Shown here: one piece after another, positions 8,864-27,173 of the stretch
Numbering within the stretch: position 1 is the stretch's first letter
How the letters are laid out: each line of letters begins with the position of its first letter
Assembly (NCBI RefSeq): GCF_003344865.1
Contig: NZ_CP031165.1
Span: forward strand, 4,841,910 to 4,905,909
Direction: 5' to 3'
From: Euzebya pacifica
Lineage (GTDB): Bacteria > Actinomycetota > Nitriliruptoria > Euzebyales > Euzebyaceae
Length of the DNA stretch: 64,000 bases
The notes under the pieces: model-generated
Seen by the model: only the letters and a program-made list of their open reading frames with translations
Told to the model about the DNA's origin: nothing
Database searches by the model: none
Translations under genes and position numbers: made by a program

Positions 8864-9346
8864 GTGAAGCAGCGTGTGTCGCGTGCCGTCATCGCGGCGG
8901 TGGTGGTGCTGGGGTCAGCGGTTGCCAGCGGGTGCTCCACGGCGGAGATCCCCGGCATGGCCGACGTGCTCGACCTGCCCACCGACGGCTCGCACGTGCT
9001 GACGAGCGGCGAGGACTGGCAGCTCGTCGTCACGCCGCACCAAGCACTGGAGCTCAGGCAGGAGCGGCGCATATCTGGCGTCAGCGACTACACCCGACCC
9101 ATCACCCTGACCGAGGCGCACGGCTTCGATGCCACGAGGAACGGGAACCCGGTCACGGTGGTCGCCGGGCCGGTGGGTGACGACGCTGCCCGCGTCGAGG
9201 TGGAGAGCCTCAACGGCGTCGTCGATGACGCAGCGATCGTGCGCGCACACGGCCTGACGTGGTTCTGGCTGGAGCTGGCCGACGACGACCTCTTCCAGAT
9301 CACCGCCTACGACGACCAGGGCGAGATCCTCGATCAGCGGCGGTAG
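8864..9346 (+). CDS. Small putative lipoprotein
   Basis: This is a 160-residue protein. The N-terminus VKQRVSRAVIAAVVVLGSAVASGCST is a type II signal with basic head, hydrophobic core and lipobox VASGC, so it should be anchored outside the membrane through Cys-24. The mature part is acidic, with no recognised domain, and ends in a short beta-rich stretch (WFWLELADDDLFQITAYDDQGEIL). The GTG at 8864 has AGGGG 8 bases upstream; a GTG three codons earlier is an alternative. The gene overlaps the convergent hydrolase by 13 bases at its 3' end. Nothing links it to the catabolic regulon. Confidence 0.75.
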   Translation: MKQRVSRAVIAAVVVLGSAVASGCSTAEIPGMADVLDLPTDGSHVLTSGEDWQLVVTPHQALELRQERRISGVSDYTRPITLTEAHGFDATRNGNPVTVVAGPVGDDAARVEVESLNGVVDDAAIVRAHGLTWFWLELADDDLFQITAYDDQGEILDQRR

Positions 9347-10209
9347 GCCGATGCCAGGCGGGACAGGATGTCCGCCAGGTCGCAGGGGTGATCGAGCATC
9401 AGGTGGTGGTGGCCCGGCTCGACCAGCAGCTCGAGGTCGGGGTCGGCAGCGGCCATGTGGGTCAGGCGGTCGCGCTGCTCGACCGGCACGACGGGCGAGT
9501 CGTCGGCCACGATCACCGTCGCTGGACAGCGGGCACTTTCCAGGACCACGCCCACATCCCCAGGCCGGTCGGGTGGGTGCCCCACGAACAGGGCGGGGTC
9601 GAACGCCCACGTCCACCCCTCGGCATGTTCGACCACGGCGTGGGCCGCGAGGTGCGCCAGCAGGGAGGGGTGGACGACCGGCTGGGCGGGCAGCAGCCGG
9701 AACCGCCTGGTCAGCGCCTCCGCAGAGCTGGCATACCGCCGGGCGGCCATGATCTGCTCGGCGTGGCCGATGGACTCCGGCGGCGGGATGTCCAGCGGCG
9801 TGTCGACGACCACCACTCCCCCGAGCCTGTCGCCGTGGGCTGCCCCGACCATCGCCGCCACGACCCCGCACATCGAGTGCCCCACGACCACGGGGGACGG
9901 CCCGCCCACCTCCTCCACCACGGCCATCACCTGGTCGACCCAACCGGTGAAGGAGTAGCGGTCGAGGTGCGACGACCGGCCGTGGCCGACCATGTCCAGC
10001 GCGACGACGTGCCATCGGTCCGCCAGCAGTCCGGCCACGGCGCTCCACCATCCGGCGTGCGCCCCGCCGCCGTGCAGGACGACCAGGACCGGGCACCCGA
10101 GCGTCCCCCACTCCAACCGGTGGTGGTCCACCCCATCGACGGTCGTCACGACCGAACGCGGCTCGCGGGCGAGGGCGGCGCCCAACCAAGGCGGCGAAGG
10201 ACTGGTCAT
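9334..10209 (-). CDS. Alpha/beta hydrolase
   Basis: This 291-residue alpha/beta-hydrolase-fold protein shows the oxyanion-hole motif HGGGAHAGWW, the strand VVALDMVGHGRS and the nucleophile elbow GHSMCG. A late Asp is seen in VIVADDSP and the catalytic His in EPGHHHLML. Relatives cleave esters, lactones or C-C bonds such as meta-cleavage products. The substrate is not evident. It starts next to operator 3; reading towards the gene, the operator end continues as TAAACT, a TAnnnT -10 candidate, and AGGA precedes the ATG. Membership of the regulon suggests hydrolysis of an ester, lactone or ring-cleavage intermediate. Confidence 0.85.
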   Translation of the reverse strand: MTSPSPPWLGAALAREPRSVVTTVDGVDHHRLEWGTLGCPVLVVLHGGGAHAGWWSAVAGLLADRWHVVALDMVGHGRSSHLDRYSFTGWVDQVMAVVEEVGGPSPVVVGHSMCGVVAAMVGAAHGDRLGGVVVVDTPLDIPPPESIGHAEQIMAARRYASSAEALTRRFRLLPAQPVVHPSLLAHLAAHAVVEHAEGWTWAFDPALFVGHPPDRPGDVGVVLESARCPATVIVADDSPVVPVEQRDRLTHMAAADPDLELLVEPGHHHLMLDHPCDLADILSRLASAYRR

Positions 10210-10229
10210 ACGACGGATCCTGCCATAGT

Positions 10230-10246
10230 TTACTTATCAGTAAGTC
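10230..10246. promoter_or_regulatory. Operator 3 between hydrolase and SnoaL gene
   Basis: TTACT-TATC-AGTAA is perfect at 10230-10243. The 16-mer TACTTATCAGTAAGTC aligns with TACCGAACGGTAAGTA of operator 4. It is a weaker match to the consensus than most others. Confidence 0.6.
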
Positions 10247-10266
10247 ACCTGCGCCGAGGAGCCGCC

Positions 10267-10731
10267 ATGTCCAACACCGCCAACGACCTCGAGGCCATCC
10301 GTGGGCTGCTCGGCCGATACGCCGACCACATCGACGCGGTGGACCTCGACGGCCTCGCCACGCTGTTCACCGAGGACGCGACCGCGTGGCTGCTGGGCAC
10401 CGAGCTGACCGGTCGCGACGAGATCATCGATTACGTCGGAAAGGCGCTGGATCGGTGCGAGGCCACCAGCCACCTCATCGGCAGCCACGTCGTGGACGCC
10501 GCGTGGGACAGCGCCACCCAGACGGCGGTGGTGCAGGCGTTCCACCGCTTCCGCGACACCGGCGAGACGTGGCTGCTGCACGGCCGGTACGTCCAGTCCC
10601 TCGTCCTCACCGGCGACGGGTGGAGGATCACCCGCCACGAGCTGCACGGCATCGGCTCGGAGCCCGACGGTGGCGGACCGTCCCGCAGCTACAGCGGCCA
10701 CCCCCGCCGCCGGACACCGCAGACCACCTGA
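10267..10731 (+). CDS. SnoaL-like (NTF2-fold) protein
   Basis: This 154-residue protein has the family pattern LEAIRGLLGRYADHIDAVDLDGLATLFTEDATAW, then GRDEIIDYVGKALD and a C-terminal strand set ending DGWRITRHELHGIGSEPDGG. Start ATG 10267 has GAGGAGCC upstream; the long upstream frame is a shadow of the hydrolase. It resembles the SnoaL gene at 3641-4111 in length and in the HELHG..SEP tail. Members act as isomerases, cyclases, dehydratases or epoxide hydrolases, or have no known activity. It stands across operator 3 from the hydrolase. A weak CCCTC/GAGGG hairpin follows its stop and faces the convergent TIM-barrel gene. Confidence 0.78.
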   Translation: MSNTANDLEAIRGLLGRYADHIDAVDLDGLATLFTEDATAWLLGTELTGRDEIIDYVGKALDRCEATSHLIGSHVVDAAWDSATQTAVVQAFHRFRDTGETWLLHGRYVQSLVLTGDGWRITRHELHGIGSEPDGGGPSRSYSGHPRRRTPQTT

Positions 10732-12889: not shown

Positions 12890-14005
12890 TCAGGCGCCCT
12901 TGACCATGGCCTTCAGCTCGTTCATGCCCTGGAAGCTGTACCGGGCGAGCTCGGGGTCACCGAGGCCGGTGATGTTCCACATGACGAGGTGGCGCAGGCC
13001 AGCGTCGTGGTAGCGCTCGATCTCCTCGGCGAGCTGCTCGGGGGTGCCGGCGAAGGCGTAGTGGGACGACACCTGCGGCGGGATCTTGGTGAGGATGCGG
13101 TCGACCTCCTCACGCGGGACGCGGGTGGGGATGAAGTCGTGGAAGCCGCCGCTGCCGCCGAGGGGCGGCTCGAGGCCCATGGACTCATACACCCAGTTGG
13201 GCATGAGGATGCAGAGCATGCGGACCATCTCCGAGGCCAGCAAGCGCTGCACGGACTCCTCGTCGGGGCCGATCAGGAAGTAACCGAGCATGCCGGGCGT
13301 GAACCCGTCCATGTTGCGTCCGGCGTCCTTGCCGGCCTTCAGGATCGTGTCGAGGGAGGAGCGGTAGGCCTCGGGCGACATCTTGGTCGGCAGCCAGCCG
13401 TCGGCGTACTGGCCCGTGAGGCCGAGCATGCGGGGGCCGTGGGCGGCCAGCCAGATCTCCGGCGGGGTGTCGCCGTAGGGGTCCAGGCCCATGACGGCGT
13501 CCTTGAGGCGGAAGTGCGTGCCCTCGAAGTCGACCTTCTCCGCGCCGGCGTTGAAGAGGAGCTTGATGACCTCCAGGCCCTCGGCGAGCTTGCCGACCGG
13601 CTTGTCCCACTCCATCCCGTAGGGCTCGATGTTGAGCTGTTCGCCCGAGCCGACACCGAGGATGGCGCGACCCTTGGTCATGTGGTCCAGCGTCAGCATC
13701 GTCTGGGCGACCGACGCGGGGTGGCGGCGCAGCAGGTCGGTGACGCAGGTGCCGAGCTTGATCGTCTCGGTCTGCGCGCCGACGGCCGACATCATCGCGA
13801 ACGGGTCGGCGTACACGTGGCTGGACTGCTGGTAGTTGGCCAGCGGCGTGTAGTCGGTGTTCCACATGCTGTCGGGGTGCCAGCCCATGAGGTGGTCGGG
13901 CCACCAGATGCCGTCGTAGCCGGCCTGCTCCATCTTCACCCCGGCGGCGATGCCACGGTCGATCGGTGGGGTGATGGCGCCTGGGGCGCCGAGCTGGATG
14001 TCCAT
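12890..14005 (-). CDS. LLM-class F420-dependent oxidoreductase
   Basis: This 371-residue protein belongs to the luciferase-like monooxygenase fold using coenzyme F420. It shows EQAGYDGIWWPDHLMGW, the conserved IKLGTCVTDLLRRHPASVAQTMLTL and GRAILGVGSGEQLNIEPYG. The layout ending in WNITGLGDPELA resembles glucose-6-phosphate dehydrogenase (Fgd) and phthiodiolone ketoreductase relatives. The activity is hydride transfer between F420 and an alcohol or ketone. Start ATG 14005 has GAGCCACC upstream, which is weak. It lies between the Rieske and P450 genes, which suggests oxidation of the alcohol made by the P450. That order is inferred. Confidence 0.9.
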   Translation of the reverse strand: MDIQLGAPGAITPPIDRGIAAGVKMEQAGYDGIWWPDHLMGWHPDSMWNTDYTPLANYQQSSHVYADPFAMMSAVGAQTETIKLGTCVTDLLRRHPASVAQTMLTLDHMTKGRAILGVGSGEQLNIEPYGMEWDKPVGKLAEGLEVIKLLFNAGAEKVDFEGTHFRLKDAVMGLDPYGDTPPEIWLAAHGPRMLGLTGQYADGWLPTKMSPEAYRSSLDTILKAGKDAGRNMDGFTPGMLGYFLIGPDEESVQRLLASEMVRMLCILMPNWVYESMGLEPPLGGSGGFHDFIPTRVPREEVDRILTKIPPQVSSHYAFAGTPEQLAEEIERYHDAGLRHLVMWNITGLGDPELARYSFQGMNELKAMVKGA

Positions 14006-14078: not shown

Positions 14079-14396
14079 TCAGACGGTGACGAGGACGTCG
14101 TCGCCGTCGGTGGTGACGGGGTAGGTCCTGACCGGTTCGGTGGCCGGCAGGGTCAGCGCCTCGCCGGTGCGCAGGTCGAAGACGGAGTTGTGGGCGGGAC
14201 ACTCGATGCAGCTGCCGTCGAGCCAGCCCTCGCTGAGCGACTCCTCCTCGTGGCTGCAGATGTCGTCGACCGCGAACAGCTCGTCGTCGTCGGTGCGGGC
14301 CAGGCAGACGCGTTGGCCACCGAGCTCGAGCAGCCGGACCTCGCCGGGAGCCAGGGACGCCGCCCCCGCCACCCGATGTGTGTTCGACTCGGTCAC
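14079..14396 (-). CDS. Rieske [2Fe-2S] ferredoxin-like protein
   Basis: This is a 105-residue single-domain Rieske protein. The cluster ligands are Cys-47/His-49 (ICSHEEE) and Cys-66/His-69 (CPAHNS), the C-x-H...C-x2-H pattern of oxygenase ferredoxins and NirD-like proteins. The GTG at 14396 has GGGAGG 7 bases upstream. The upstream ATG at 14435 falls inside the presumed -10 (TATTAT) and is rejected. It heads the operon Rieske-LLM-P450-TIM barrel, and across operator 4 stands a ferredoxin reductase, so the pair probably forms an electron chain. No oxygenase alpha subunit with a mononuclear iron site is present nearby. Confidence 0.92.
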   Translation of the reverse strand: MTESNTHRVAGAASLAPGEVRLLELGGQRVCLARTDDDELFAVDDICSHEEESLSEGWLDGSCIECPAHNSVFDLRTGEALTLPATEPVRTYPVTTDGDDVLVTV

Positions 14397-14439
14397 GCTC
14401 GATCCTCCCGGGGTTGTCTGACGGTGCCTCGTCATAATA

Positions 14440-14461
14440 GTCTACCGAACGGTAAGTAGAC
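14440..14461. promoter_or_regulatory. Operator 4 and overlapping promoters
   Basis: The core TACCGAACGGTAAGTA (14443-14458) is flanked so that GTCTAC and GTAGAC also form outer arms. Reading left, CGGTA continues into TAGACT and TATTAT (14434-14439), strong -10 candidates for the Rieske operon. Reading right, GGTAAGTAGAC serves the SDR operon. Confidence 0.8.
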
Positions 14462-14532: not shown

Positions 14533-15252
14533 GTGACAGACCTCGATGGACGGGTCGTGGCGGTGACCGGCGCAGGTTCCGGCATCGGCCTGGCCACGGT
14601 TGCGCTGCTCCGCGAACGGGGGGCCACCACGGTCTCGTGGGACCTGTCCCCCATCGAGGTGGAGGCGCCCCACCGCGCCGCCGTGCTCGACGTCACCGAC
14701 GAGGGCGCCGTGGCGCTGGCGGTGTCGGATGCCATCAACGACCTCGGCCGCCTGCACGGCCTGGTCAACTGCGCCGGGACGCTGGGCCACACCGGCGACC
14801 GCCTGGCCGACCAGCCCCTCAACCGGGCCCGCACCACGTTCGAGGTCAACACCCACGCGGTCCTCTCGACGATGCAGCAGGTACTGCCGCACATGGTCGC
14901 CTCCGGGGGCGGTGCGATCGTCAACGTCGCCTCCAACGCCGCGCTGGGTGCCCGGCCCGGGCTGGCCCCCTACTCCGCCTCCAAGGCCGCCTCGATCGCC
15001 TACACCCGGACCGCCGCGCGGGAATACGGCCGCCACGGGGTGCGCGTCAACGCCGTCTGCCCCGGCGGCACGGCGACGCCCATGGTGGGTGACGTCACCG
15101 AGGAGTCGATGGAGCGTGTCACCCGTGCAATCCCGCTGGGCCGCTGGGCCGAGCCGTCGGAGATCGCGGCCACCATCGTGTTCCTGCTGTCCGACGAGGC
15201 GTCCTACGTGTCGGGGGCGACGTTGGTCGTCGACGGCGGGGCGACCGCGTGA
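14533..15252 (+). CDS. Short-chain dehydrogenase/reductase
   Basis: This 239-residue classical SDR has a nucleotide-binding TGAGSGIG at residues 12-19, the NCAGTLG motif, the catalytic Ser in VASNAAL and YSASK as catalytic Tyr/Lys. The C-terminus AIPLGRWAEPSEIAATIVFLLSDEASYVSGATLVVDGG is typical of 3-oxoacyl-ACP-reductase-like enzymes. The GTG at 14533 follows GGAG; starts further upstream exist in frame (14518, 14476) but have poorer sites. It overlaps the ferredoxin reductase gene as TGATG. A role as a beta-hydroxyacyl-CoA or alcohol dehydrogenase in the regulon is likely. Confidence 0.9.
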   Translation: MTDLDGRVVAVTGAGSGIGLATVALLRERGATTVSWDLSPIEVEAPHRAAVLDVTDEGAVALAVSDAINDLGRLHGLVNCAGTLGHTGDRLADQPLNRARTTFEVNTHAVLSTMQQVLPHMVASGGGAIVNVASNAALGARPGLAPYSASKAASIAYTRTAAREYGRHGVRVNAVCPGGTATPMVGDVTEESMERVTRAIPLGRWAEPSEIAATIVFLLSDEASYVSGATLVVDGGATA

Positions 15253-16487
15253 TGGCCGGTCCACAGGTGGTCGTGGTCGGCGGTGGGCCCGCCGCTGCCG
15301 CGTTGGTCCACGGGCTGCACCGTGGCGGCCACGAGGGATCCGTCGTGGTGCTGGCCGGTGAGGGGTGCACGCCGTACGACCGGACGGCGGTGTCCAAGGG
15401 CCTGCTGACCGGTGAGGTGCCTACCGCGCCCGAGCTGTTCCCCGAGGTGCTGACCGCCGACGTCGTGCGCCATGCCGACGTCGTCGAGATCGACCGGGCC
15501 GCTCGCGAGGTCGTGACGGGCGACGACGACCGCATCGGCTTCGACCGGCTCGTGCTGGCCACCGGTGCGGCGCCCCGGGTGCCCCCGGTCCCGGGGCTGG
15601 ACGGCCCCCACGCCAGCACCCTTCGCGACGCCGCCGAGGCAGCTGTCCTGGCCGAGCGGTTGCGGCCCGGCGCCCGGCTGGTCGTCGTCGGCGCGGGCCT
15701 GATCGGGCTCGAGGTTGCGGCGGCGGCGCGCACCCGGGGCGCCTCGGTCACGGTGCTGGAGGCGGCCCCGACCGCCCTGAGTCGGGTGCTGCCGACCGTG
15801 GTGTCGGAGGTGGTGCTGAGCCGGCACGCCGCTGAGGGCATCGACGTGCGGCTGGGCACTCCTCCCTCCGCGGTGGTGTCCTCCTCCTCTTCTTCCGGGC
15901 AGGCCGTGGTCGTCCTGGCAGACGGGACCGAGCTGCCGGCCGACCACGTGCTGGTCGCCACCGGCGTCGCCCCACGCACCGACCTGGCGGCCGCCGCGGG
16001 CCTGGCCGTCGACGACGGCGTCCTGGTCGACGAGCGGCTCGTGACCAGCGACCCGGCGATCATGGCCATCGGCGACGTCGCCCGTGTCCGTGCCGCCGAC
16101 GGGACCACCGCGCGCCACGAGGCCTACACGCCGGCGATGGCCATGGGCCAGCACGCCGCCCGCACGATCCTCGGCGAGCCGACCCGGTTCGTCGACGTGC
16201 CGTGGTCGTGGTCGGACCAGCTGGACCTGAGCATCCAGGTCGCGGGCTGGCCCGACCGGGCCGACCGCTGGGTGCTGCGTGGGTCCGCCGAGGACCTGGA
16301 TGCTGGCCTGTTCGCCTTCGGTGTGCGCGACGGGCGGCTGGTCGCCGCGACCGGTGTGTCGCGTGGCCGACAGGTCGGCCGGATCGTCCGCGGCGCGCAG
16401 GCGTTGGTTGCCGCTGGCCTCGACGTCGACGATGCTGCCCTCGCAGACCCCTCCACCGACCTGCGCCGTTTGGCTCGCACCGGCTGA
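15252..16487 (+). CDS. FAD-dependent ferredoxin reductase
   Basis: This 411-residue flavoprotein is of the rubredoxin/putidaredoxin-reductase type. The FAD Rossmann motif GGGPAAAALVHGL is at the N-terminus, CTPYDRTAVSKG follows, and the NAD(P)H-binding VVVGAGLIGLEVAAAA sits mid-chain. The second FAD motif is DPAIMAIGDVARV, followed by the W-rich reductase C-terminal domain VPWSWSDQL. It passes electrons from NAD(P)H to a small iron-sulfur protein, here most likely the Rieske ferredoxin encoded divergently, and on to the P450 or an oxygenase. ATG 15252 overlaps the SDR stop (TGATG); GTG 15249 is an alternative. A run of serine codons (SSSSSS) interrupts one loop. Confidence 0.92.
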   Translation: MAGPQVVVVGGGPAAAALVHGLHRGGHEGSVVVLAGEGCTPYDRTAVSKGLLTGEVPTAPELFPEVLTADVVRHADVVEIDRAAREVVTGDDDRIGFDRLVLATGAAPRVPPVPGLDGPHASTLRDAAEAAVLAERLRPGARLVVVGAGLIGLEVAAAARTRGASVTVLEAAPTALSRVLPTVVSEVVLSRHAAEGIDVRLGTPPSAVVSSSSSSGQAVVVLADGTELPADHVLVATGVAPRTDLAAAAGLAVDDGVLVDERLVTSDPAIMAIGDVARVRAADGTTARHEAYTPAMAMGQHAARTILGEPTRFVDVPWSWSDQLDLSIQVAGWPDRADRWVLRGSAEDLDAGLFAFGVRDGRLVAATGVSRGRQVGRIVRGAQALVAAGLDVDDAALADPSTDLRRLARTG

Positions 16488-16530: not shown

Positions 16531-17133
16531 ATGTCGACTGTCCACCTCCCGATCCTGCCCGCCGCCCGTCCGGCGCTGCTGGCCACCGTCCCCCGCCAGG
16601 TCGTGGCTGTCGCGGTCGGCAGCGCTGCGCTGGCGATCTCGGCCCAGCTGCAGGTGCCGATGTGGCCCGTGCCCATCACCGCGCAGACCCTCGTCGTGCT
16701 GCTGCTGGGCTTCGTGCTCGGCCCGAAGCTGGCGATGGCGACCGTGCTCACCTACCTGGGTGAGGGTGCGCTGGGCCTGCCCGTCTTCGCCGGCCTGACC
16801 GGCGGCGCCGCCACGCTGGTCGGCCCGACCGGTGGCTACCTGTGGGGCTTCGTCCTGGCCGCCGGCCTGACCGGTGCGCTCGCCCAGCGCGGCTGGCACC
16901 GTTCCGCACCGCTGGTCGCGGCCGCGATGGTGCTCGGCAACCTGGTCATCTACGCGATCGGCGCCAGCTACCTGACGACCTGGCTGCACTTCATGGCGGC
17001 CGACACCCTCGCCTGGGGCAACGCGGTCAAGGCCGCCTGGACCGGCGGCGTGTACCCGTTCCTCATCGGCGACGCCGTCAAGATCGCCCTCGCGATGGTC
17101 GCCCTCCCGGCCCTCTCCCGCCGCACCGACTGA
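16531..17133 (+). CDS. bioY: BioY biotin transporter S component
   Basis: This 200-residue membrane protein has the BioY pattern: WPVPITAQTLVVLLLGFVLG, GLPVFAGLTGGAATLVGPTGGYLWGF, and further hydrophobic helices. It is the biotin-binding S unit of an ECF importer, or a lone uptake protein. No ECF A or T genes are seen nearby. AGGAG precedes the ATG at 16531, and the gene begins 43 bases after the ferredoxin reductase, so it may share its transcript; a terminator follows. A biotin-dependent carboxylase in the same cluster (25383-27173) gives a reason for biotin import here. No BirA-type operator was recognised. Confidence 0.93.
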   Translation: MSTVHLPILPAARPALLATVPRQVVAVAVGSAALAISAQLQVPMWPVPITAQTLVVLLLGFVLGPKLAMATVLTYLGEGALGLPVFAGLTGGAATLVGPTGGYLWGFVLAAGLTGALAQRGWHRSAPLVAAAMVLGNLVIYAIGASYLTTWLHFMAADTLAWGNAVKAAWTGGVYPFLIGDAVKIALAMVALPALSRRTD

Positions 17134-17448: not shown

Positions 17449-18234
17449 CTACTGGAGGGTGACCATGCCGCCGTCGACGGGGAGCACGGCGCCGGTGACC
17501 CAGGAGGCGGCGCGGGAGGAGAGGAAGATGGCGGCACCGGCGGCGTCGTCGGGGCGGCCGACGCGGCCGAGCGGCACGGACTCCTCGATCCCCTCCTCGT
17601 CGGTCTCCAGCGCGAAAGCGGTCATCTTCGACGGGAAGATGCCGGGGGCGATTGCGTTGACCGTGATGTGCTCGCGGGCGAGGCGGGCGCCGACCACGCG
17701 GGTCAGCTGGTGCACGCCGGCCTTGGAGGCGGAGTAGGCGTAGGACTCCCAGATCGGGGTGCGCATGCCGTCGACCGACCCGATGTTGATCACCCTGGAG
17801 GGGTGGTCGGCGGTGGCCGCAGCGCGCAGCAGGTCCAGGCACGCCACGGTCAGGTTGAACGGCGCCTTCAGGTTGAGGGCCAGCACCTTGTCCCACGCCT
17901 CGTCGGGGTAGTCCTCGATGTCGGCACCCCACGTCGCGCCGGCGTTGTTGACCAGCACATCGAGCCGGTCCGTGTGCGCCGACAGCCCCTCGACGAGCGC
18001 CGCGACACCCTCGACGCTCGACACGTCCGCCGGCAGGGCCACGGCCCGCTCCCCCAGCTCCTCGACCAGCGCCTCGCAGGCCGACGCCGTTCGCGCCGAC
18101 ACGTAGACGGTGGCCCCTGCCGCGTGGAACCCACGGGTGATCATCTCACCGATTCCACGGGACCCGCCGGTCACGAGCACGTGCCGGCCGGCGACGTCGA
18201 ACAGCTCGGCCGGTCCGGAGGCACCCACGCTCAC
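17449..18234 (-). CDS. Short-chain dehydrogenase/reductase, RhlG/FabG-like
   Basis: This 261-residue SDR has TGGSRGIG at residues 22-29, the NNAGATWG motif, catalytic Ser in NIGSVDG and YSASK as Tyr/Lys pair. The C-terminus AAIFLSSRAASWVTGAVLPVDGG is the usual cofactor and tetramer segment. The sequence DVAGRHVLVTGGSRGIGEMI and the insertion DHPSRVINIGSVDGM resemble RhlG-type 3-ketoacyl reductases. The GTG at 18234 overlaps the stop of the FrhB-like gene as GTGA, so translation is coupled. It is the last gene of the leftward operon starting at operator 5. Confidence 0.9.
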   Translation of the reverse strand: MSVGASGPAELFDVAGRHVLVTGGSRGIGEMITRGFHAAGATVYVSARTASACEALVEELGERAVALPADVSSVEGVAALVEGLSAHTDRLDVLVNNAGATWGADIEDYPDEAWDKVLALNLKAPFNLTVACLDLLRAAATADHPSRVINIGSVDGMRTPIWESYAYSASKAGVHQLTRVVGARLAREHITVNAIAPGIFPSKMTAFALETDEEGIEESVPLGRVGRPDDAAGAAIFLSSRAASWVTGAVLPVDGGMVTLQ

Positions 18235-19352
18235 GTCGAGATGATGGGCAGCAGGCCGGGACGACGGGCGTCGCCGACCAGGTCGTCGGTGGGCCAGCGC
18301 TTGCGGGACACCGTCGACAGCTTGGTCAGCAGGTTCATCGCCACCGGGTCCTCCTCACCGGGACGCGCCTCGATCAGGCCGGCGTCGATGACGCCCTTCA
18401 TCCACTCCTCCCCGCGGGCGGTGCGGATGAGGGTCAGCGTCCAGTTGTCGTCCGCGCCGATCCCGCCGGTGGAGATGTCGGCGTGCTCGGCCGCGAAGTC
18501 CGGGCACTTCTTGCAGCCCTCGCGGGTGTAGGGGTGGAACTCCTTGAGCGGCAGCTCGTGGTACGAGCCGTCCCGCAGCCACACCATGTAGCGGCCCTTG
18601 ATGTTGACCTTCACGACGTCGTTGATGTCGATGTCGTGGTTGGCCAGGACCAGCTTCTGCCCCTCGTAGGTGAAGGTCTTGGAGCACAGCAGGCCGATCG
18701 TCAGGGCGATCTTGCGCTTGTACTTGTTCACCCCGTACGTCTCGACCGTGCCGTTGATCGACGCCTGGCAGGACATGCCGACCAGCGCGATCTGCTTGAG
18801 CTTCTGCTCGTCGGCCTGCTTCATCGCCAGCGGGTTGGCGGAGTAGGTGTAGCGCGACCCAGCTGTGGCCAGCACGCCCTCGCGGTCGGTGACGAGGGCG
18901 GGTTCGGAGTCGAACGGTCCGCGCGTCTCCGTGATCGCCGACGTCAGCGCGCCGTCGATCATCTCGTTCTCCAGCCCCCAGATGAGGAGGGTGGACACGA
19001 GCCCGCCGTCCTGGCCCTGCTCGTGCACGGTCTTCTCCGTGGCACGGGTCAGCAGGATCGAGCGGACGTGGCCGTAGACCTGGTCGGGTTCGCGGGGCTG
19101 GCCGAACAACACCTCGTCGATGTCGGTCTCCCAGTTGCGGAACCGGGGACACGCGCGGGTGCAGATGTCGCAGCCGCGGTCACCGATGACGCACTGGTCC
19201 TTCTCCATCCCCTCGCCGATCTGCACCGGCCAGTAGTCCTCGGTGTAGCCGAGGACGTCCCGGGGGCAGACCATGACGCAGGCGGCGCAACCGGTGCACA
19301 ACCCGGGCTCCACGACCTCGCGGTACAGCTCTCGCCAGTGCACGTCACCCAT
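18231..19352 (-). CDS. Coenzyme F420 hydrogenase/dehydrogenase beta-subunit-like protein (FrhB family)
   Basis: This 373-residue iron-sulfur flavoprotein carries two N-terminal 4Fe-4S motifs: Cys-19/22/25/29 (CTGCAACVMVC) and Cys-54/61/64/68. FrhB N and C domains follow, with GMSCQASINGTVETYG and CKKCPDFAAEHADISTGGIGADDNW, characteristic of the family. FrhB proteins hold FAD and exchange hydride with F420 while moving electrons to iron-sulfur partners. Here it lies between two SDRs, not beside a hydrogenase, so it may couple F420H2 (from the LLM enzyme) to reduction of an unsaturated acyl-CoA or ring. That link is inferred. ATG 19352 has GGAG 7 bases upstream. Confidence 0.9.
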   Translation of the reverse strand: MGDVHWRELYREVVEPGLCTGCAACVMVCPRDVLGYTEDYWPVQIGEGMEKDQCVIGDRGCDICTRACPRFRNWETDIDEVLFGQPREPDQVYGHVRSILLTRATEKTVHEQGQDGGLVSTLLIWGLENEMIDGALTSAITETRGPFDSEPALVTDREGVLATAGSRYTYSANPLAMKQADEQKLKQIALVGMSCQASINGTVETYGVNKYKRKIALTIGLLCSKTFTYEGQKLVLANHDIDINDVVKVNIKGRYMVWLRDGSYHELPLKEFHPYTREGCKKCPDFAAEHADISTGGIGADDNWTLTLIRTARGEEWMKGVIDAGLIEARPGEEDPVAMNLLTKLSTVSRKRWPTDDLVGDARRPGLLPIIST

Positions 19353-19372
19353 AACAAGTCTCCGGTCGTCGA

Positions 19373-20182
19373 TCAGCCACGGGGCGGGAACACCGACCCG
19401 AAGGGGTGGGGAGAAAGATGCCAGCCTCCGTCTACCACGACGGTTGCACCGGTCACGTATCCGGCTGCTCGGCTGAGCAGGAACGCCGCCGGGCCGAGCA
19501 GCTCGTCGGACGCGCCGAACCGGCCGAGCGGGATGTTGTCCAGGGCCGCATCGTGGACCGGTCCGAAGCTCCACATGCCGGCGTCGGCTCCCTCGGTGGA
19601 GAAGGCGCCGGGGGCGAGGGAGTTGATGCGCAGGCCCCTGGGTCCCCACTCCACGGCGAGGGAGCGGATGAGTGCCTCCAGGCCGGCCTTGGCGGCGCTG
19701 GAGTGGGCGGCGCCTGGAACCTCGCGTTCGGCCAGGGCGCTGGAGACCATCATGGCTGCGCCGGGGGTGCCGGCCCCGAGCAACGGCTGCGCCCAGCGGC
19801 GGAGCACCTGGAAGGGGCCGTTCAGGCTGGAGCCGACGACCGCGGCGAACCCGCCCGGGCTGATGTCCTCGGCCGCCGCGAGGAAGGCGCCGCTGGCGGC
19901 GTTGACCAGCAGCGGGACCGGTCCGCCCTCGGCCTCGGCGGCGGTGAAGGCCGCGTCGACGGCGTCGGCGTCACGGATGTCGGCGGCGAGCGGGGTGATC
20001 GACCCGTCGGACTCGGCAGCCACGGCCTCGAGCCGTTCCATCCGACGGCCGACGACGAACACCTCGACCCCGGCGCCGGCCAGCATCAGCGCGATGTCAC
20101 GCCCGATCCCGGAGCTGCCACCGGTGACGAGCGCCCGATCGGCGGCGGGCACCCAGGGGCCCTGGAAGTAGGCGGACGACAT
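19373..20182 (-). CDS. 2,4-dienoyl-CoA reductase-like SDR
   Basis: This 269-residue SDR has TGGSSGIG at residues 20-27 and NAASGAF where classical SDRs have NNAG. The catalytic Tyr is replaced: the motif reads AAHSSAAKAG with Lys-165 and His-160. The following segment LIRSLAVEWGPRGLRINSLAPGAFSTEGADAG closely follows peroxisomal/mitochondrial 2,4-dienoyl-CoA reductases, which also lack the Tyr. It should reduce a conjugated dienoyl-CoA with NADPH. It heads the operon with the FrhB-like protein and a second SDR. Operator 5 lies 41 bases upstream and its end makes the -10-like TAGAAT; GAGGAAG precedes the ATG. Confidence 0.85.
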   Translation of the reverse strand: MSSAYFQGPWVPAADRALVTGGSSGIGRDIALMLAGAGVEVFVVGRRMERLEAVAAESDGSITPLAADIRDADAVDAAFTAAEAEGGPVPLLVNAASGAFLAAAEDISPGGFAAVVGSSLNGPFQVLRRWAQPLLGAGTPGAAMMVSSALAEREVPGAAHSSAAKAGLEALIRSLAVEWGPRGLRINSLAPGAFSTEGADAGMWSFGPVHDAALDNIPLGRFGASDELLGPAAFLLSRAAGYVTGATVVVDGGWHLSPHPFGSVFPPRG

Positions 20183-20222: not shown

Positions 20223-20238
20223 TACCGACTGTTTGGTA
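20223..20238. promoter_or_regulatory. Operator 5 upstream of dienoyl-CoA reductase operon
   Basis: TACCGACTGTTTGGTA fits the 16-bp core. Reading left, its end continues into TAGAAT, a near-ideal -10. The right side runs to the 3' end of the ligase gene, so this operator serves one direction. Confidence 0.8.
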
Positions 20239-20326: not shown

Positions 20327-21970
20327 TCAGGTGAGGGGTGCGCGACCGGCGAAGTCCTCGACGGCCCGATCCCGCAGGTCGACCTTGCGGATCTTGGTGG
20401 CCGACATCGGCCACTCCTCGATGAAGGCGACGTGGCGGGGGATCTTGAAGCTGGCGATCTCGTCGCGGCACCAGTCGATGATGTCCTGCTCGGTCAGCCC
20501 GGAGCCGGGACGGATCTCGAGGTAGGCCACGGCGACCTCCCCGAGCCGGTCGTCGGGCAGGCCGACGACGGCAGCCATCTGCACGTCGGGGTGGGCGATC
20601 AGGTGGGACTCGATCTCGATCGCGGCGACGTTCTCGCCGCCGATCTTGAGCATGTCCTTCAGCCGACCGCGGAACTCCAGCAGGCCGTCGACGGTGATGA
20701 CGCCCAGGTCGCCGGTGTGGAACCAGCCCTCGTCGTCCATCACCTCCGCCGTCTTCTCCTCCAGCCCGTGGTAGTGGGAGAACAACGTGGTGCCACGGCA
20801 GACGATCTCGCCCTCCACCCCCGCCGGGGCCGGCTGGTTGTCGCCGATGGTCCGGACCTCGACCTCGGCACCGCGCAACGGCCTGCCGGGTCGCATGCGC
20901 AGCTCGAAGGGGTCGTGCGGGTCGGCCATGGCGATGGATCCGGCGACCTCGGTCATGCCGAAGGCGGTGACGACCTTCGTCCCGGGCAGCTTGCCCTCCA
21001 GCTCGCGGAGCTGCGTGGGCGGTGCGACGGTGAAGACGCTGCGGACCCGGCGGAAGGGCTCGGGGTCGAAGTCGGGGTGGTCGACCAGCCCGTCGGTGAT
21101 CGGCGGGAACGCGGTGTACAGGACGGTCGCCTGCTCCTCGGCGATCATCCGCAGGCCCACCGCGGCGTCGAAGGCCTGCATGTTGCAGTAGGTCCCGACC
21201 GACCAGAGCATGGCGAACAGCGGTTGCGAGCAGGCGCTGTGGAACATCGGCAGCGGGCTGAACATGACGTCGCCGCGGCGCACGTCCATGCGTACGGCGG
21301 TCTCCTGTCCCTGGCGAACCATCGCCTCGTGGCTGAGCACACAGCCCTTGGGCAGCGACGTCGTGCCGGAGGTGTAGAAGATCGTCGCCGGGTCGCGCAG
21401 GGCCACGCGGGCGGCCTCGTGCTCGACCACGGCCTCGGTGACGTCAGCGCCGGCCGCCTCGAAACGCTTGGCCGGCAGGAATCCCGTCGCCCCGGTGGAG
21501 GAGAGGTCCACCACGTGGCGCAGCGCGGGGGCCTCGGTCAGGGACAACGGTGCCCCGTCGGCGGCGCCGGTCTGCTCGGCGAGCGCGGGGAAGGCGTGGG
21601 TGACCCGTTCGGTGAACGCGATCACGCCCTCCTCGTCGGCCACGGCCAGCACCGCGATGTCGGCGTCGGGTACGACGTGGCGCAGCTCACGTGACCGGAA
21701 CCGGCTGTTGATCGGCACCAGGACGGCGCCGAGGAGGAGGGTGCCGAACCAGACCTCGAGGTAGTCCAGGGAGTTGGGCATCAGCACGCCGACCCGGTCG
21801 CCCGCCCGGACGCCGAGTCCGTGGAGCGACCGCGCGGCCGCCACCGATCCGTCCAGCAGCTGCTGGTAGGTCCGGCGGTCGTCGGGGAAGACGATCGCCG
21901 TGCGGTCGGGGTCGAGGGTGGCGCCCCTGATGATCAGGTCGCCACCGGTGCACACCTCGCGGTACTCCAC
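20327..21970 (-). CDS. Acyl-CoA synthetase (AMP-forming)
   Basis: This 547-residue ANL ligase has the P-loop FYTSGTTSLPKG near residues 197-208, the A5 motif AFGMTEVAGS and the A7/A8 region WFHTGDLGVITVDGLLEFRGRLKDMLKIGGENV. Near the C-terminus MSATKIRKVDLRD supplies the catalytic Lys region. It resembles medium-chain or aryl/cyclic acid CoA ligases. It lies 54 bases behind the thiolase on the same strand, so the two probably form one transcript from operator 6. Activation and thiolysis in one operon fits a complete side-chain removal module. Confidence 0.92.
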   Translation of the reverse strand: MEYREVCTGGDLIIRGATLDPDRTAIVFPDDRRTYQQLLDGSVAAARSLHGLGVRAGDRVGVLMPNSLDYLEVWFGTLLLGAVLVPINSRFRSRELRHVVPDADIAVLAVADEEGVIAFTERVTHAFPALAEQTGAADGAPLSLTEAPALRHVVDLSSTGATGFLPAKRFEAAGADVTEAVVEHEAARVALRDPATIFYTSGTTSLPKGCVLSHEAMVRQGQETAVRMDVRRGDVMFSPLPMFHSACSQPLFAMLWSVGTYCNMQAFDAAVGLRMIAEEQATVLYTAFPPITDGLVDHPDFDPEPFRRVRSVFTVAPPTQLRELEGKLPGTKVVTAFGMTEVAGSIAMADPHDPFELRMRPGRPLRGAEVEVRTIGDNQPAPAGVEGEIVCRGTTLFSHYHGLEEKTAEVMDDEGWFHTGDLGVITVDGLLEFRGRLKDMLKIGGENVAAIEIESHLIAHPDVQMAAVVGLPDDRLGEVAVAYLEIRPGSGLTEQDIIDWCRDEIASFKIPRHVAFIEEWPMSATKIRKVDLRDRAVEDFAGRAPLT

Positions 21971-22024: not shown

Positions 22025-23230
22025 CTAGCCCAGGCGCTCGATGATCGTGGCGTTGGCCATGCCGCCGCCCTCGCACATCGTCTGCAGGCCGAAGCGGCCG
22101 CCGGTCTGCTCGAGCACGTTGATCAGGGTGGTCATCAGCTTGGCGCCGGACGCACCCAGCGGGTGGCCGTTGGCCATGGCCCCGCCGTTGATGTTCACCT
22201 TGGCCATGTCCGCGCCGGTCTCGGCCTGCCAGGCCAGCACGACCGGGGCGAAGGCCTCGTTGACCTCGAAGGCGTCGATGTCGTCGATGGTCATGCCGGC
22301 CCGCTCGAGGACCTTCTTGGTGGCGGGGATGACGCCGGTGAGCATCAGCACGGGGTCATCGCCGACGACGGCGACCTCGCGGATGACGGCGCGAGGGGTC
22401 AGGCCCAGCTCGTCGGCCTTCTCGCGGGACATGACCAGCACGGCGGCGGCGCCGTCGGAGATCTGGGAGGCCCCACCGGCGTGCACGACCCAGTTCAGGT
22501 CGGGATAGGTCTCGGCCAGCTCGTCGCTGTGGAAGGCGGGCTTGAGGCTGGCCAGCGACTCGGGGCTGGTGCTGGGACGGATGCCCTCGTCGGCGGTCAT
22601 CTTCTCGCCGGTCGGACCCTCGCCACGGTTGACGGCGACCTGCAGCAGCTCGTTCTCGAAGCGGCCGTCCTTGGTTGCCTCGTTGGCGCGGCGGTGGGAC
22701 TCGGTGGCCAAGTTGTCCAGGTCGGCGCGGGTCAGGCCCCACTTGGCGGCGATCATCTCGGCGCTGATGCCCTGGTTGACCAGCCCGCCGCGCTCGGCGT
22801 AGCGGTCGGCGACCTTGGTGCCGAAGGAGTCCTTGCCCTGGGCGGAGGAGAACATCGGCACACGCGACATGACCTCCACGCCACAGGCGATGGCCACGTC
22901 GTAGGCGCCGGACTGCACACCCTGGGCGGCGAAGTGCAGCGCCTGCTGGGACGACCCGCACTGGCGGTCGATCGAGGTGGCAGGGACGTGTTCGGGGAAC
23001 CCAGCACCCAGGACGGCGTTGCGGCCGACGTTGAAGGACTGCTCGCCGGACTGGGAGACGCAGCCGGTGATGACGTCGTCGACGATGCCCGGGTCGATGC
23101 CGGTGCGCTCGACAAGCCCGGACAGGACCTCGGCAAGCAGGTCGACGGGGTGCCAGCCGGACAGGGCGCCGCCGGGCTTGCCCTTCCCGATGGGGGTCCT
23201 GAGGACGTCGACGATCACGGCTTCACGCAT
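22025..23230 (-). CDS. Acetyl-CoA acyltransferase (thiolase), degradative type
   Basis: This 401-residue thiolase has all catalytic residues: Cys-91 in DRQCGSSQQ (acyl carrier), His-356 in NGHPLGASG and Cys-386 in MCEGGGMANA. The substrate loop NEAFAPVVLAWQ and the oxyanion His are also present. It cleaves a 3-oxoacyl-CoA to acetyl-CoA (or propionyl-CoA) and a shortened acyl-CoA. The sequence style resembles FadA5-like steroid thiolases as well as general FadA, which I cannot separate by eye. Operator 6 lies 56 bases upstream. It is followed by the acyl-CoA ligase. Confidence 0.94.
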   Translation of the reverse strand: MREAVIVDVLRTPIGKGKPGGALSGWHPVDLLAEVLSGLVERTGIDPGIVDDVITGCVSQSGEQSFNVGRNAVLGAGFPEHVPATSIDRQCGSSQQALHFAAQGVQSGAYDVAIACGVEVMSRVPMFSSAQGKDSFGTKVADRYAERGGLVNQGISAEMIAAKWGLTRADLDNLATESHRRANEATKDGRFENELLQVAVNRGEGPTGEKMTADEGIRPSTSPESLASLKPAFHSDELAETYPDLNWVVHAGGASQISDGAAAVLVMSREKADELGLTPRAVIREVAVVGDDPVLMLTGVIPATKKVLERAGMTIDDIDAFEVNEAFAPVVLAWQAETGADMAKVNINGGAMANGHPLGASGAKLMTTLINVLEQTGGRFGLQTMCEGGGMANATIIERLG

Positions 23231-23285: not shown

Positions 23286-23303
23286 TTACCTACTAGTCGG
23301 TAA
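23286..23303. promoter_or_regulatory. Operator 6 upstream of thiolase-ligase operon
   Basis: TTACCTACTAGTCGGTAA has matching outer arms TTACC and GGTAA and an ACTAGT centre. It lies in the 136-base gap between the thiolase start and the 3' end of the OYE gene and so controls the thiolase side. Confidence 0.78.
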
Positions 23304-23366: not shown

Positions 23367-25307
23367 TCAGTCGAGCCCGGCCACGAGGGCGAAGGCCTGA
23401 CGGGTGGCCGCGACCAGCCGGCGGGGCGCGAACGCATCGCCGAGGAGGTGCAACGACGACACCCTCCCACGAAGTGCCGTGTGGAGACCAGCCCGTGGCA
23501 CGGCGCCGCACGCGAGGACGACCGTGTTGACGTCGTCGAGCTGGAACGGCCGTCCGGAGTACACGTTGGCGAGGTGGACCGTGGGGCCATCGACGGCGAC
23601 CAACCGGGCGTGGGGCACCAGCCGGCCACCCTCGGCGTCCAGCCGGGCCAGGATCCCGCCGATCGTGTACTTGTTGGTCAGCGGTGACGGGTCGGGGGAG
23701 CCGTGGACCACGGTGACCGCGTGCCCGGCGCCGGCCAGGTGGTCGGCCACGGCCAGGGGCACGGGCCGGTCGTCCTCGGCGATCACCACGACGCGATGGC
23801 CCACCCCTGCGCCCTGCAGGACGTCGACGGCGGTCAGCACGTGTGGTTGGTCCAGCCCGTCGGCATCGGGCAGGCGGGGCGAGGCGCCGGTGGCCACGAC
23901 CACGACGTCGGTGCCCTCCTCGAGGACGGCCGTCTCGTCGGCATCGACGCCGAACCGGACCTCCACGCCGAGCGCGTCCAGACGCCGCGCCTGCCAGCCG
24001 ATCCAGTCGGCGTACGGCGCGTTCATCCGCGCCCGGGCGGCCACGGCAAGCTGCCCGCCCAGGTGGTCGTCGCGCTCCCACAGCTGGACTCGGTGCCCGC
24101 GTTCGGCGGCGAGGGCCGCCACCTCCGTTCCCGCCGGCCCTCCGCCGATGACGAGGATCGACCGGGCCTGCTCCACGCGCGGCAGCGGACCCTCGTGCTC
24201 GCGGCCGACGTGGGGGTTGACCGCGCACGCGAACGGCAGGTGCTCCACGACCCTGCGACTGAGGCAGTCCTGGACGCCGATGCACGGACGGGCGTTCCCC
24301 TCCTCCCCCTGCTTGGCGAGCTCCAGCAGGCGCGGTTCGGCGATGAGGGCACGGACCACCCCGACCAGGTCGGCGTGGCCGTCGGCGATGACCTGTCGGG
24401 CGGTGGCGACGTCCCCGACGCGGCCGGCGTAGAGGATCGGCAGGTCCGTGGCCGTCCCGGCCTCGGCGCACAGGGCCGCCCACTGCGCCGGGCCGTAGGT
24501 GTTGGGCGCGACGTAGCTGGGGGCACCCCAGTTGTTGCCGACGTCGAGGCTGAAGTAGTCCACCGTGCCCTCGGCGGTGAAGGCCGCGAGCAGCTGCTGG
24601 CACTCCTCCAGCCCGTAGCCGCCCTCGATCATCTCGTCGACGCACAGGCGCAGACCGACGGTGATGGGCCGGGCGATGCGGGCGCGAATGGCCTCGACCA
24701 CCTCGCGGAGCAGCCGGCGCCGGTTCTCCGGCGATCCGCCGTAGGCATCGGTGCGACGATTCGTCCGGGGCGAGAGGAACCACTGCAGCACGTCGTCGTG
24801 GTTGGCGTGCAGCTCGATCACATCGGCATCGCCGTCGGCGGCCAGGGCCGCGGATTCGCCGTACTCCCTCACCAGCCAGGACATTTCGTCGAGGTCGAGG
24901 GCATGCGGCACCTGGTGGTCGCGGTGGCCGCTGAGGGTGGCCGACGGTGCGGTGGGGAGGCCGCCCTGCAGGACCATCTGGACCGTGGACCAGCCGCCTG
25001 CCGTGTGCAACCTGCGCGAGTACTCGGCCAGCCGCTCGACGTAGCCGGACTGGCGGAAGGTGCCGTCAGCCATCGCACCCACGCCGGTCGGCTCGAACCC
25101 GGGCACGAGGGGGTTGCGCACGAACGTCGGCGCGCCGCCCACCCACTGCACGCCCGCCTCGACCCGCTGCACCCAGTAGGCGCAGAAGCGTTCGAACTGC
25201 ACGTCGCGGCCGAGCAGCGCCCCGCGCCCGCCGGAATGGGGCGGCATGACCATGCGGTGGTCCAGCGAGATCGTCCCGACGGTGATGGGGTCGAACAGGT
25301 CGGTCAT
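23367..25307 (-). CDS. Old-yellow-enzyme-family iron-sulfur flavoprotein (FadH/TMADH-like)
   Basis: This 646-residue protein has three parts. The FMN TIM barrel (about 1-335) includes IELHANHDDVLQWFLSPRTNRRTDAYGG, the family signature. A cluster-binding linker and an ADP/FAD domain with VIGGGPAGTEVAALAAERGH follow, with a C-terminal NAD(P)-like part. Relatives are 2,4-dienoyl-CoA reductases, trimethylamine dehydrogenase and NADH:enone reductases. The cluster motif reads Cys-342-x2-Val-345-x2-Cys-348-x12-Cys-361, the trimethylamine dehydrogenase spacing but with Val in place of the second Cys. Operator 7 lies upstream with a TATATT -10 and GGAG before the ATG. Confidence 0.9.
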   Translation of the reverse strand: MTDLFDPITVGTISLDHRMVMPPHSGGRGALLGRDVQFERFCAYWVQRVEAGVQWVGGAPTFVRNPLVPGFEPTGVGAMADGTFRQSGYVERLAEYSRRLHTAGGWSTVQMVLQGGLPTAPSATLSGHRDHQVPHALDLDEMSWLVREYGESAALAADGDADVIELHANHDDVLQWFLSPRTNRRTDAYGGSPENRRRLLREVVEAIRARIARPITVGLRLCVDEMIEGGYGLEECQQLLAAFTAEGTVDYFSLDVGNNWGAPSYVAPNTYGPAQWAALCAEAGTATDLPILYAGRVGDVATARQVIADGHADLVGVVRALIAEPRLLELAKQGEEGNARPCIGVQDCLSRRVVEHLPFACAVNPHVGREHEGPLPRVEQARSILVIGGGPAGTEVAALAAERGHRVQLWERDDHLGGQLAVAARARMNAPYADWIGWQARRLDALGVEVRFGVDADETAVLEEGTDVVVVATGASPRLPDADGLDQPHVLTAVDVLQGAGVGHRVVVIAEDDRPVPLAVADHLAGAGHAVTVVHGSPDPSPLTNKYTIGGILARLDAEGGRLVPHARLVAVDGPTVHLANVYSGRPFQLDDVNTVVLACGAVPRAGLHTALRGRVSSLHLLGDAFAPRRLVAATRQAFALVAGLD

Positions 25308-25382: not shown

Positions 25383-27173
25383 ATGTTCAACGCAGTGCTG
25401 ATCGCCAACCGTGGAGAGATCGCCGTCCGGGTCGCCCGCGCCTGTCGGGAGCTGGGCGTGCGAAGCGTCGCCGTCCACTCCGAGGCCGACGCCGGCGCCA
25501 TGCACGTGCGCATGGCCGACGAGGCCCATCTCCTCGGCCCCACGCCTCCCGCCGAGAGTTATCTCAACATCCCGCGGATCCTCGCGGTCGCCGAGCAGGC
25601 GGGGGTGGACGCCATCCACCCGGGCTACGGCTTCCTGTCGGAGAACGCCGACTTCGCCCGTGCCGTCGTCGACGCCGGATTCGCCTGGATCGGCCCACCG
25701 CCGAAAGCCATCGAGGCCATGGGCGACAAGCTGACCGCTCGTGCCGTCGCCCGTGCGGCCGACGTGCCCGTCGTACCGGGGACGACCGAACCGACGACCG
25801 ACCCGGAGCTGGTCCGGGCGTTCGGCGAGACACATGGCTGGCCGTTGGCCATCAAGGCGGCGTTCGGCGGCGGTGGTCGTGGCATGAAGGTCGTTCGCGG
25901 CCCCGGCGACGTCGAGTCGGCGCTGGCAGGTGCCCGCCGCGAGGCCGAGGCGTCCTTCGGCCGTGGCGAGTGCTACGTCGAGCGGTACCTGGAGCGTCCC
26001 CGCCACGTCGAGGTGCAGGTCCTTGCCGACGCTGACGGAACCGTCATCCACCTGGGTGAGCGCGACTGCTCGTTGCAGCGTCGCCACCAGAAGCTGGTGG
26101 AGGAGGCCCCTGCACCCGGCCTGGCCGACGCCACCCGTATGGCCCTGCGCGACGCAGCCATCCGAGTGGCCAGCGAGATGGGCTACGTCAACGCCGGGAC
26201 GTGTGAGTTCCTCGTCGACCGCGACGCCGACGGCACCGAACGCCACTACTTCTTGGAGATGAACACCCGCCTGCAGGTCGAGCACCCGGTCACGGAGCTC
26301 GTGACCGGCGTGGACCTGGTCCACCAGCAGCTGCGGATCGCCGCGGGCGACGGCATGACCATCGCCCAGGACGACGTCGAGCTGCGCGGCCACGCCATCG
26401 AGGTGCGGCTGAACGCCGAGGACCCGGCGACCAACTTCATGCCCTCCCCCGGCCCGGTCACCCGCATCACCGTGCCGCAGGGCCCGTGGATCCGCTTCGA
26501 CGGCGGTGTGGAGTCCGGTGACGTCATCGGCGGCGCCTACGACTCGATGGTCGGCAAGCTGATCGTGTGGGGCGAGGACCGCGCCACCGCGGTGTCCCGC
26601 ATGGCCCGGGCGCTGGAGGAGATGACGGTCGTCGGCGTGCCGACCACGCTGCCGTTCCACCGCCTCGCGATGGCCCACGAGGACTTCGTGACGGCCAGCC
26701 ACGCGACCTCCTCGGTCGAGGGCGACTGGGACCTGTCGACGCTGGAGCCGTGGCAGCCGGCCGACCCCGAACCGGTGGCGACCAACGGGCACGCCCCCGG
26801 TCACACCACCACCGCCCGCGAGGTCGAGCTGTTCGTCTCCGGCGCCCCGCTGCACGTCACCGTGCACGGGGTCGGCCGGGCCAACGCCGCGGTGCAGGCC
26901 GCCAGCAGCCGCCGACGTGACGGCGGTGGTCGTCGGGGCGCCGGGGCCAGCAACGACGGTCCCGAGCTGCGCGCCCCGATGACCGGCGTGATCGTCACCT
27001 ACGCGGTGGCCGACGGCGACACGGTGTCCGCCGGCGACATCGTCTGCGTGCTGGAGGCCATGAAGATGGAGAACCACGTGGTGGCCCACCGCGACGGCAC
27101 CGTCGGCGGCATCGGCCTGTCCGATGGCGACGCGGTCGAGCAGGGCGCGCTGCTGGCCACCATCACCGCATGA
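25383..27173 (+). CDS. Biotin carboxylase/biotin carboxyl carrier alpha subunit of an acyl-CoA carboxylase
   Basis: This 596-residue alpha subunit has the N-terminal biotin carboxylase domain (FNAVLIANRGEIAVRVARAC), the ATP-grasp glycine loop AAFGGGGRGMKVV, and the active-site region EMNTRLQVEHPVTELVTGVDLV. At the C-terminus a biotinyl domain carries EAMKMEN with biotin Lys-561. It carboxylates biotin with bicarbonate and ATP. The matching carboxyltransferase (beta) is not in the window, so the acyl-CoA substrate (acetyl, propionyl, methylcrotonyl or geranyl type) cannot be named. It heads the operon with an epimerase-like protein and the MaoC pair, under operator 7. Confidence 0.93.
   Translation: MFNAVLIANRGEIAVRVARACRELGVRSVAVHSEADAGAMHVRMADEAHLLGPTPPAESYLNIPRILAVAEQAGVDAIHPGYGFLSENADFARAVVDAGFAWIGPPPKAIEAMGDKLTARAVARAADVPVVPGTTEPTTDPELVRAFGETHGWPLAIKAAFGGGGRGMKVVRGPGDVESALAGARREAEASFGRGECYVERYLERPRHVEVQVLADADGTVIHLGERDCSLQRRHQKLVEEAPAPGLADATRMALRDAAIRVASEMGYVNAGTCEFLVDRDADGTERHYFLEMNTRLQVEHPVTELVTGVDLVHQQLRIAAGDGMTIAQDDVELRGHAIEVRLNAEDPATNFMPSPGPVTRITVPQGPWIRFDGGVESGDVIGGAYDSMVGKLIVWGEDRATAVSRMARALEEMTVVGVPTTLPFHRLAMAHEDFVTASHATSSVEGDWDLSTLEPWQPADPEPVATNGHAPGHTTTAREVELFVSGAPLHVTVHGVGRANAAVQAASSRRRDGGGRRGAGASNDGPELRAPMTGVIVTYAVADGDTVSAGDIVCVLEAMKMENHVVAHRDGTVGGIGLSDGDAVEQGALLATITA

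Follow-up and report, generated by a model that had tools for sequence, protein, structure and literature searches.

The window, the whole 64,000-nucleotide stretch of Euzebya pacifica DNA that was analysed, carries on its minus strand a gene for a 373-amino-acid FrhB-family protein (18231-19352), identified by Pfam and the only gene with an FrhB_FdhB_C domain in the genome. Homologues and the gene finder favour the ATG start at 19352; a GTG start at 19649 was rejected as over-long, since it overlaps the upstream gene SDR1. SDR1 (19373-20182, minus strand) is separated from FrhB by 20 bp and encodes a 2,4-dienoyl-CoA-reductase-like protein according to Pfam, profile and PDB matches, among them PRK07677 2,4-dienoyl-CoA reductase (score below the model cut-off) and DECR structures. 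At the YxxxK site SDR1 reads HSSAAK, in which Ser replaces Tyr; its best PDB match is much alike there. Downstream of FrhB lies SDR2 (17449-18234, minus strand), a gluconate-5-dehydrogenase/FabG-like SDR by Pfam and profile matches, whose start overlaps the FrhB stop by 4 bp. The preliminary description had placed FrhB between two SDRs. The shared strand and tight spacing agree with this, but the range given for the arrangement, 18231-20182, leaves SDR2 outside.

The three genes belong to a larger catabolic cluster. Its minus strand encodes an acyl-CoA ligase (20327-21970; Pfam), a thiolase (22025-23230; Pfam and profile matches), a FadH/old-yellow-enzyme family flavoprotein (23367-25307) whose best PDB match is the bacterial 2,4-dienoyl-CoA reductase 1ps9, a Rieske-type [2Fe-2S] ferredoxin (14079-14435; Pfam), a cytochrome P450 (11586-12842; Pfam) and an LLM-class enzyme (12890-14005). 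The closest solved relatives of the LLM protein are the F420-dependent Mer and Adf, and its PDB matches comprise 11 sequences, of which all but one, a 'luciferase family protein', bear the names of F420-dependent enzymes. A ferredoxin reductase (15249-16487; Pyr_redox_2 plus Reductase_C) and a TetR-family regulator (33234-33803) are located on the plus strand. A biotin carboxylase with a biotin domain is encoded at 25383-27173. A putative BioY biotin transporter, read by eye, is found at 16531-17133 in the same cluster. No carboxyltransferase was noticed beside the biotin carboxylase; in genome G247 a gene of locus L096 (10112-11683) resembles one by eye. Elsewhere in the window, two ORFs of more than 2,060 amino acids occupy opposite strands of one stretch (49488-55679, minus; 49677-55874, plus), and the gene finder keeps the minus-strand ORF.

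A palindromic operator-like motif, TACCRAACNGTYGGTA, gave 14 matches at ≤3 mismatches versus 1.36 expected, counted on both strands so that palindromic sites count twice, and 0 of 100 shuffles reached 14. One operator, TACCAAACAGTCGGTA on the minus strand (20223-20238), is located in the SDR1-FrhB-SDR2 promoter upstream of SDR1. Further operator-like sites lie between the Rieske/LLM/P450 genes and SDR3 (14443-14458) and upstream of the thiolase (23287-23302). The TetR-family regulator is the candidate repressor of these operators. An exact copy of the operator ahead of SDR1 is kept in genome G162, and none was found directly upstream of SDR1 in G258. TACCRAACNGTYGGTA-type sites precede both SDR1-FrhB-SDR2 and Rieske-LLM-P450, which supports the earlier suggestion that an LLM F420 enzyme belongs to the putative regulon of FrhB. 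The regulon contains acyl-CoA ligases, the thiolase, the FadH/old-yellow-enzyme flavoprotein, the biotin carboxylase, the P450 and the LLM enzyme, genes which together with the SDRs would fit several alicyclic or branched acids, and in addition the Rieske ferredoxin, the ferredoxin reductase and the TetR regulator.

Domains, cluster ligands and predicted fold of FrhB

The FrhB-like gene of the preliminary description is real. Its product exceeded the Pfam cut-offs for FrhB_FdhB_N (65.9 versus 22 bits; 3.6e-18) and FrhB_FdhB_C (122.1 versus 23.3 bits; 2.3e-35) and also matched Fer4. The protein consists of an N-terminal two-[4Fe-4S] ferredoxin domain and an F420-reductase domain with four Cys residues (195, 223, 280 and 283). 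In the homologue alignment, C195, C223, C280 and C283 were invariant in 31 of 31 rows and the eight N-terminal Cys in every non-truncated row; in three rows the N-terminal Cys are missing, solely as a result of truncated gene calls. In the alignment the core Cys correspond to Cys 104/134/192/195 of FrhB, which are given as its core-cluster Cys in the available text of PMC3591093. The FrhB turn IGKGK reads NI-KGR in the window protein: one Lys is kept (K252, invariant) and the next position is R, K, V or D among the aligned homologues. As this turn is only half kept, F420 specificity is not provable from the residues. According to the available part of the Fsr structure paper, F420 density was absent in the FrhB-type fold there too (PMC10229431).

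The AlphaFold2 model of FrhB had a pLDDT of 86.7. Its best structural match was 8riu_B, the F420-reducing CODH subunit (Z 41.8 over 347 residues, 2.3 Å, 28% identity), followed by 8rja_E, Fsr, FrhB and then 7-hydroxymethyl chlorophyll a reductase (HCAR; Z 28.6), and Foldseek gave a similar order. The predicted F420-reductase domain matched the fold of Frh, Fsr and the ethanotroph F420 reductases at Z 29-42. In the sequence search, F420-reducing hydrogenase beta subunits were found at 1.1e-47 versus 7.1e-5 for HCAR. The protein missed the NCBIfam cut-offs for the frhB equivalog (196.8 versus 331.5 bits) and for FpoF (138 versus 475 bits). No hydrogenase genes, including frhA and frhG, were present among its Pfam-scanned neighbours; a hydrogenase subunit was ruled out by these absent partner genes and the missed cut-offs.

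F420 genes and distribution across Actinomycetota

The preliminary description had called for a check of the genome for F420 synthesis genes, whose absence would have told against its idea. CofC, CofD, CofE and CofGH were all found over curated cut-offs, which rules out an absence of F420 synthesis; CofGH is 843 amino acids long by gene call, in a 928-codon open frame. The genome also carries npdG (F420:NADP oxidoreductase family, Fno) over cut-off, and had no Fgd match at E≤1e-90. The presence of npdG ruled out FrhB as the sole F420 reductase of the genome, so that F420 recycling can do without FrhB. No FdxA-type ferredoxin is encoded in the operon, and the genome's one FdxA over cut-off lies ∼0.47 Mb away.

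Homologues of FrhB were detected in 141 of 396 genomes of the phylum at E≤1e-20 and in 103 at E≤1e-50; in the class they occurred in 31 of 66 genomes. The view that FrhB proteins usually serve hydrogenases or methanogen enzymes is incomplete, given how common these close homologues (103/396) are in Actinomycetota. Of the 103 genomes, 89 had npdG over cut-off versus 50 of the 293 others, and 87 had CofH at a strict threshold versus 90 of the 293; both comparisons ignore relatedness and rest on hand-compiled genome lists. The strict CofH threshold, picked post hoc, defines 177 genomes, and the curated cut-off gives 188 of 396. Fgd was found in 0 of the 103. Strict CofH was missing in 16 of the 103, and among 12 of these checked for CofD, three (G010, G146 and G160) were without CofD over cut-off.

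The window protein may instead be an FrhB-fold, ferredoxin-dependent enzyme without F420 use, as the fold includes HCAR, which is not an F420 enzyme, and as the genera g3 (4/4 genomes: G086, G308, G317 and G386) and g15 (2/2: G097 and G353) have FrhB at 73-84% identity and no CofH match. However, all six genomes carry CofD over cut-off and npdG, and FrhB has FbiC, FbiA and CofC neighbourhoods in other genomes. We consider such an enzyme very unlikely; these six genomes might take up FO or have an FO synthase that has diverged.

A more distant FrhB homologue (∼34% identity) was observed in genomes of family f15 (e.g. G011, C1:239833-240813; G041; G053), and in 14 genomes CofH is located 7-15 kb away from a homologue of this type. 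Among the genomes with a weak FrhB match only, npdG over cut-off was missing in 36 of 38 and Fgd was found in 0 of 38, which makes the distant homologue a candidate F420 reductase there. G226 has two near-identical FrhB copies in different contexts (C1:131482 and C1:4947946).

Gene neighbourhoods and origin of the operon copy

The loci compared were hand-picked from the phylum and class positives, plus L006, L008, L010 and L011. SDR flanks were counted at 40 loci, i.e. 42 rows minus two duplicates, in which the FrhB gene was called; L077, L082 and L085, at which a simple high-GC gene finder made no FrhB call, were left out of this count and included in the 42-locus tally of genes within 5 kb. 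SDRs on both sides of FrhB were found at 3 of the 40 loci only (the window, G162 and G258), which ruled out class-wide conservation of the SDR-FrhB pair. G247, a congener, has FrhB (70-71%) in divergent orientation to FbiC and, at a separate place with no FrhB beside it, SDR1 (79%); it also retains further parts of the cluster at about 47-83%. Among the 66 class genomes, five have an SDR1 homologue (E≤1e-50), namely G075 and the four members of this genus.

Within 5 kb of FrhB at the 42 loci were FdxA (11 loci), crotonase (8), acyl-CoA dehydrogenase (4), CofC (3), FbiC (2) and 2-oxoacid:ferredoxin oxidoreductase (1); because loci of the same family descend from a common ancestor, these numbers do not represent independent events. 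The family names were verified on representatives (CofC, L083/L084; FbiB and CofGH, L063; FdxA, L069; KorA/B, L081; crotonase, L060). An F420-biosynthesis gene was located within 5 kb at 5 of the 42 loci, in about four lineages: FbiA/FbiC in G063, where FrhB lies between the two genes, FbiC in G247, and CofC at three loci of two families. In G024 and G215 the FrhB-CofH spacing (1,548-1,557 bp) is like that of G063. At L081 (G118, 6496-10411) an FrhB homologue (38%) overlaps a 2-oxoacid:ferredoxin oxidoreductase alpha/beta pair by 4 bp, an arrangement which suggests a dedicated F420-linked 2-oxoacid oxidoreductase. At L054, L060 and L067, in several class genomes, FrhB and a crotonase gene run in the same direction and overlap by 4-8 bp.

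The preliminary description had proposed that FrhB, coupled to the dienoyl-CoA-reductase-like SDR, may tie F420 redox to acyl-CoA or ring reduction. FrhB alone or with SDR1 would then catalyse the HCAR-like reduction of a dienoyl-CoA or ring intermediate, with F420H2 (or ferredoxin) as the electron donor. The DECR-like SDR in the operon, the FadH/old-yellow-enzyme flavoprotein nearby, the fold shared with HCAR, and the crotonase (8/42) and acyl-CoA dehydrogenase (4/42) genes near FrhB in other lineages point in this direction. Against it, most loci are not such catabolic operons, SDR1 is apart from FrhB in G247, HCAR is far more distant in sequence than the F420 relay subunits are, and the top structural matches are F420 subunits that relay electrons. 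The coupled reductase was not borne out and appears highly improbable to us, while the neighbouring genes in other lineages keep a wider acyl-CoA link alive.

The three operon copies cluster together in the FrhB tree (100/99) and then join G097/G353 (98/97), not the congener G247, whose FrhB forms a long branch. The CofH tree unites the four congeners (100/99), and an FrhB tree with the genus forced together was not rejected (AU p 0.376). The conflict between the two trees may reflect a transferred or replaced gene. A g15-like lineage as the donor, to which the 98/97 branch points, was not accepted in view of the AU result.

This grouping would fit a general F420 gene that was moved or transferred into the operon and has no metabolic tie to the pathway, as would the fact that the sole FrhB of the genome has its homologues outside such operons elsewhere. 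But the spacing is kept in three species (SDR1-FrhB 20-22 bp, FrhB-SDR2 −4 to 1 bp) and the operator in two, an F420-type LLM enzyme shares the regulon, and transfer itself is unproven by the AU test. We regard this explanation as unlikely. FrhB is conserved at 98% in G162 and at 92% in G258, where its operon neighbours are at 54-84%; this higher conservation speaks for a kept function, which would fit a general as well as a pathway role.

Proposed role and comparison with known systems

The best reading of the sequences is that FrhB is common in Actinomycetota as an F420-linked protein, mostly in F420 makers, and is not a hydrogenase subunit. For the window protein we favour, with about even confidence, a stand-alone F420 oxidoreductase with a relay to a ferredoxin-type partner, which would probably serve the co-regulated LLM enzyme. 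Hydride would be exchanged with F420 at the FAD of FrhB, and electrons would then travel singly through three [4Fe-4S] clusters, one in the core and two in the N-terminal domain, to the ferredoxin-type partner, as in FpoF or CODH zeta. The likeliest local role would be cofactor recycling for the LLM enzyme, either by draining F420H2 to a ferredoxin (and from there perhaps to the P450) or by the opposite reaction. As the sole FrhB copy lies in a TetR-type regulated catabolic operon, the FrhB level should follow the pathway. The analysis shows the gene itself, its order and wider F420-gene neighbourhoods, the operator-like sites, the F420 synthesis genes, the cluster ligands and the predicted fold; F420 activity, the ferredoxin partner, the direction, the regulation and the link to the LLM enzyme are what we infer. 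Support comes from the full-length match to 8riu_B, the conserved cluster Cys, the complete F420 gene set, the co-occurrence with npdG and CofH, the F420-biosynthesis and ferredoxin-related genes near FrhB in other genomes and the conservation of FrhB in G162 and G258. Against this reading count the half-kept turn, the missed NCBIfam cut-offs, the FrhB genomes without CofH or CofD, the lack of FdxA in the operon and the npdG already present. An extension that we think unlikely is that many Actinomycetota carry a general F420:ferredoxin oxidoreductase, a so far unrecognised bacterial branch of the archaeal F420 redox-coupling family, and that in this genus F420H2 from the LLM enzyme, acting as a dehydrogenase, would feed ferredoxin and then the P450, a closed loop without NAD(P)H in an aerobic regulon.

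F420/iron-sulfur electron exchange has so far been described mainly from methane-cycling and related archaea. In the available text of a 2021 F420 review, a table gives the redox-coupling family only from Euryarchaeota (methanogens, ANME and Archaeoglobales), and the bacterial F420 reducers named in its functional table are Fno and Fgd (PMC8498797). The available text of PMC7325909 and PMC5395668 holds nothing on FrhB. Searches of the open PMC literature brought up no paper on an F420 enzyme of the FrhB type from actinobacteria. Given a review listing from Euryarchaeota only, the newsworthy part is that bacteria have a branch of the family which is associated with F420 genes. We rate the FrhB family as known; what is new is a bacterial member that stands alone within a catabolic operon. 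Electrons may also pass between F420 and iron-sulfur proteins in ordinary bacteria; if true, the actinobacterial branch would be a further bacterial route from F420 to low-potential iron-sulfur chemistry. It would make F420H2 production or drainage directly testable in lineages without Fgd, and the catabolic operon offers an inducible setting for such tests.

The window protein resembles FrhB of the F420-reducing [NiFe]-hydrogenase in its core domain and four cluster Cys, but has its own ferredoxin domain and scores below the NCBIfam frhB cut-off. FpoF/FqoF, the F420H2 dehydrogenase subunit, combines a ferredoxin domain and an F420 domain on one chain, and the window FrhB aligned with it as a single stretch; however, the score falls short of the FpoF cut-off and there are no adjoining Fpo/Nuo genes. 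The N-terminal half of the F420-dependent sulfite reductase Fsr is alike in fold (Z 33.9, 322 residues), while by Pfam the window protein is without the siroheme sulfite-reductase domain. HCAR has the same fold and is not an F420 enzyme; its sequence match reaches only 7e-5, and the window FrhB is closer to F420 enzymes. The CODH zeta F420-reducing subunit of Ca. Ethanoperedens thermophilum (8RIU) and its Fwd counterpart (8RJA) differ in that the window FrhB is bacterial, at 28% identity, with scanned neighbours free of CODH or Fwd genes. Coupled F420 reduction was shown for both systems, whose subunit is described in the available text as a two-cluster ferredoxin domain, an F420-reductase domain with a cluster and FAD, and a C-terminal extension (PMC11493965). 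As far as this text describes it, the full-length layout is identical to that of the window protein.
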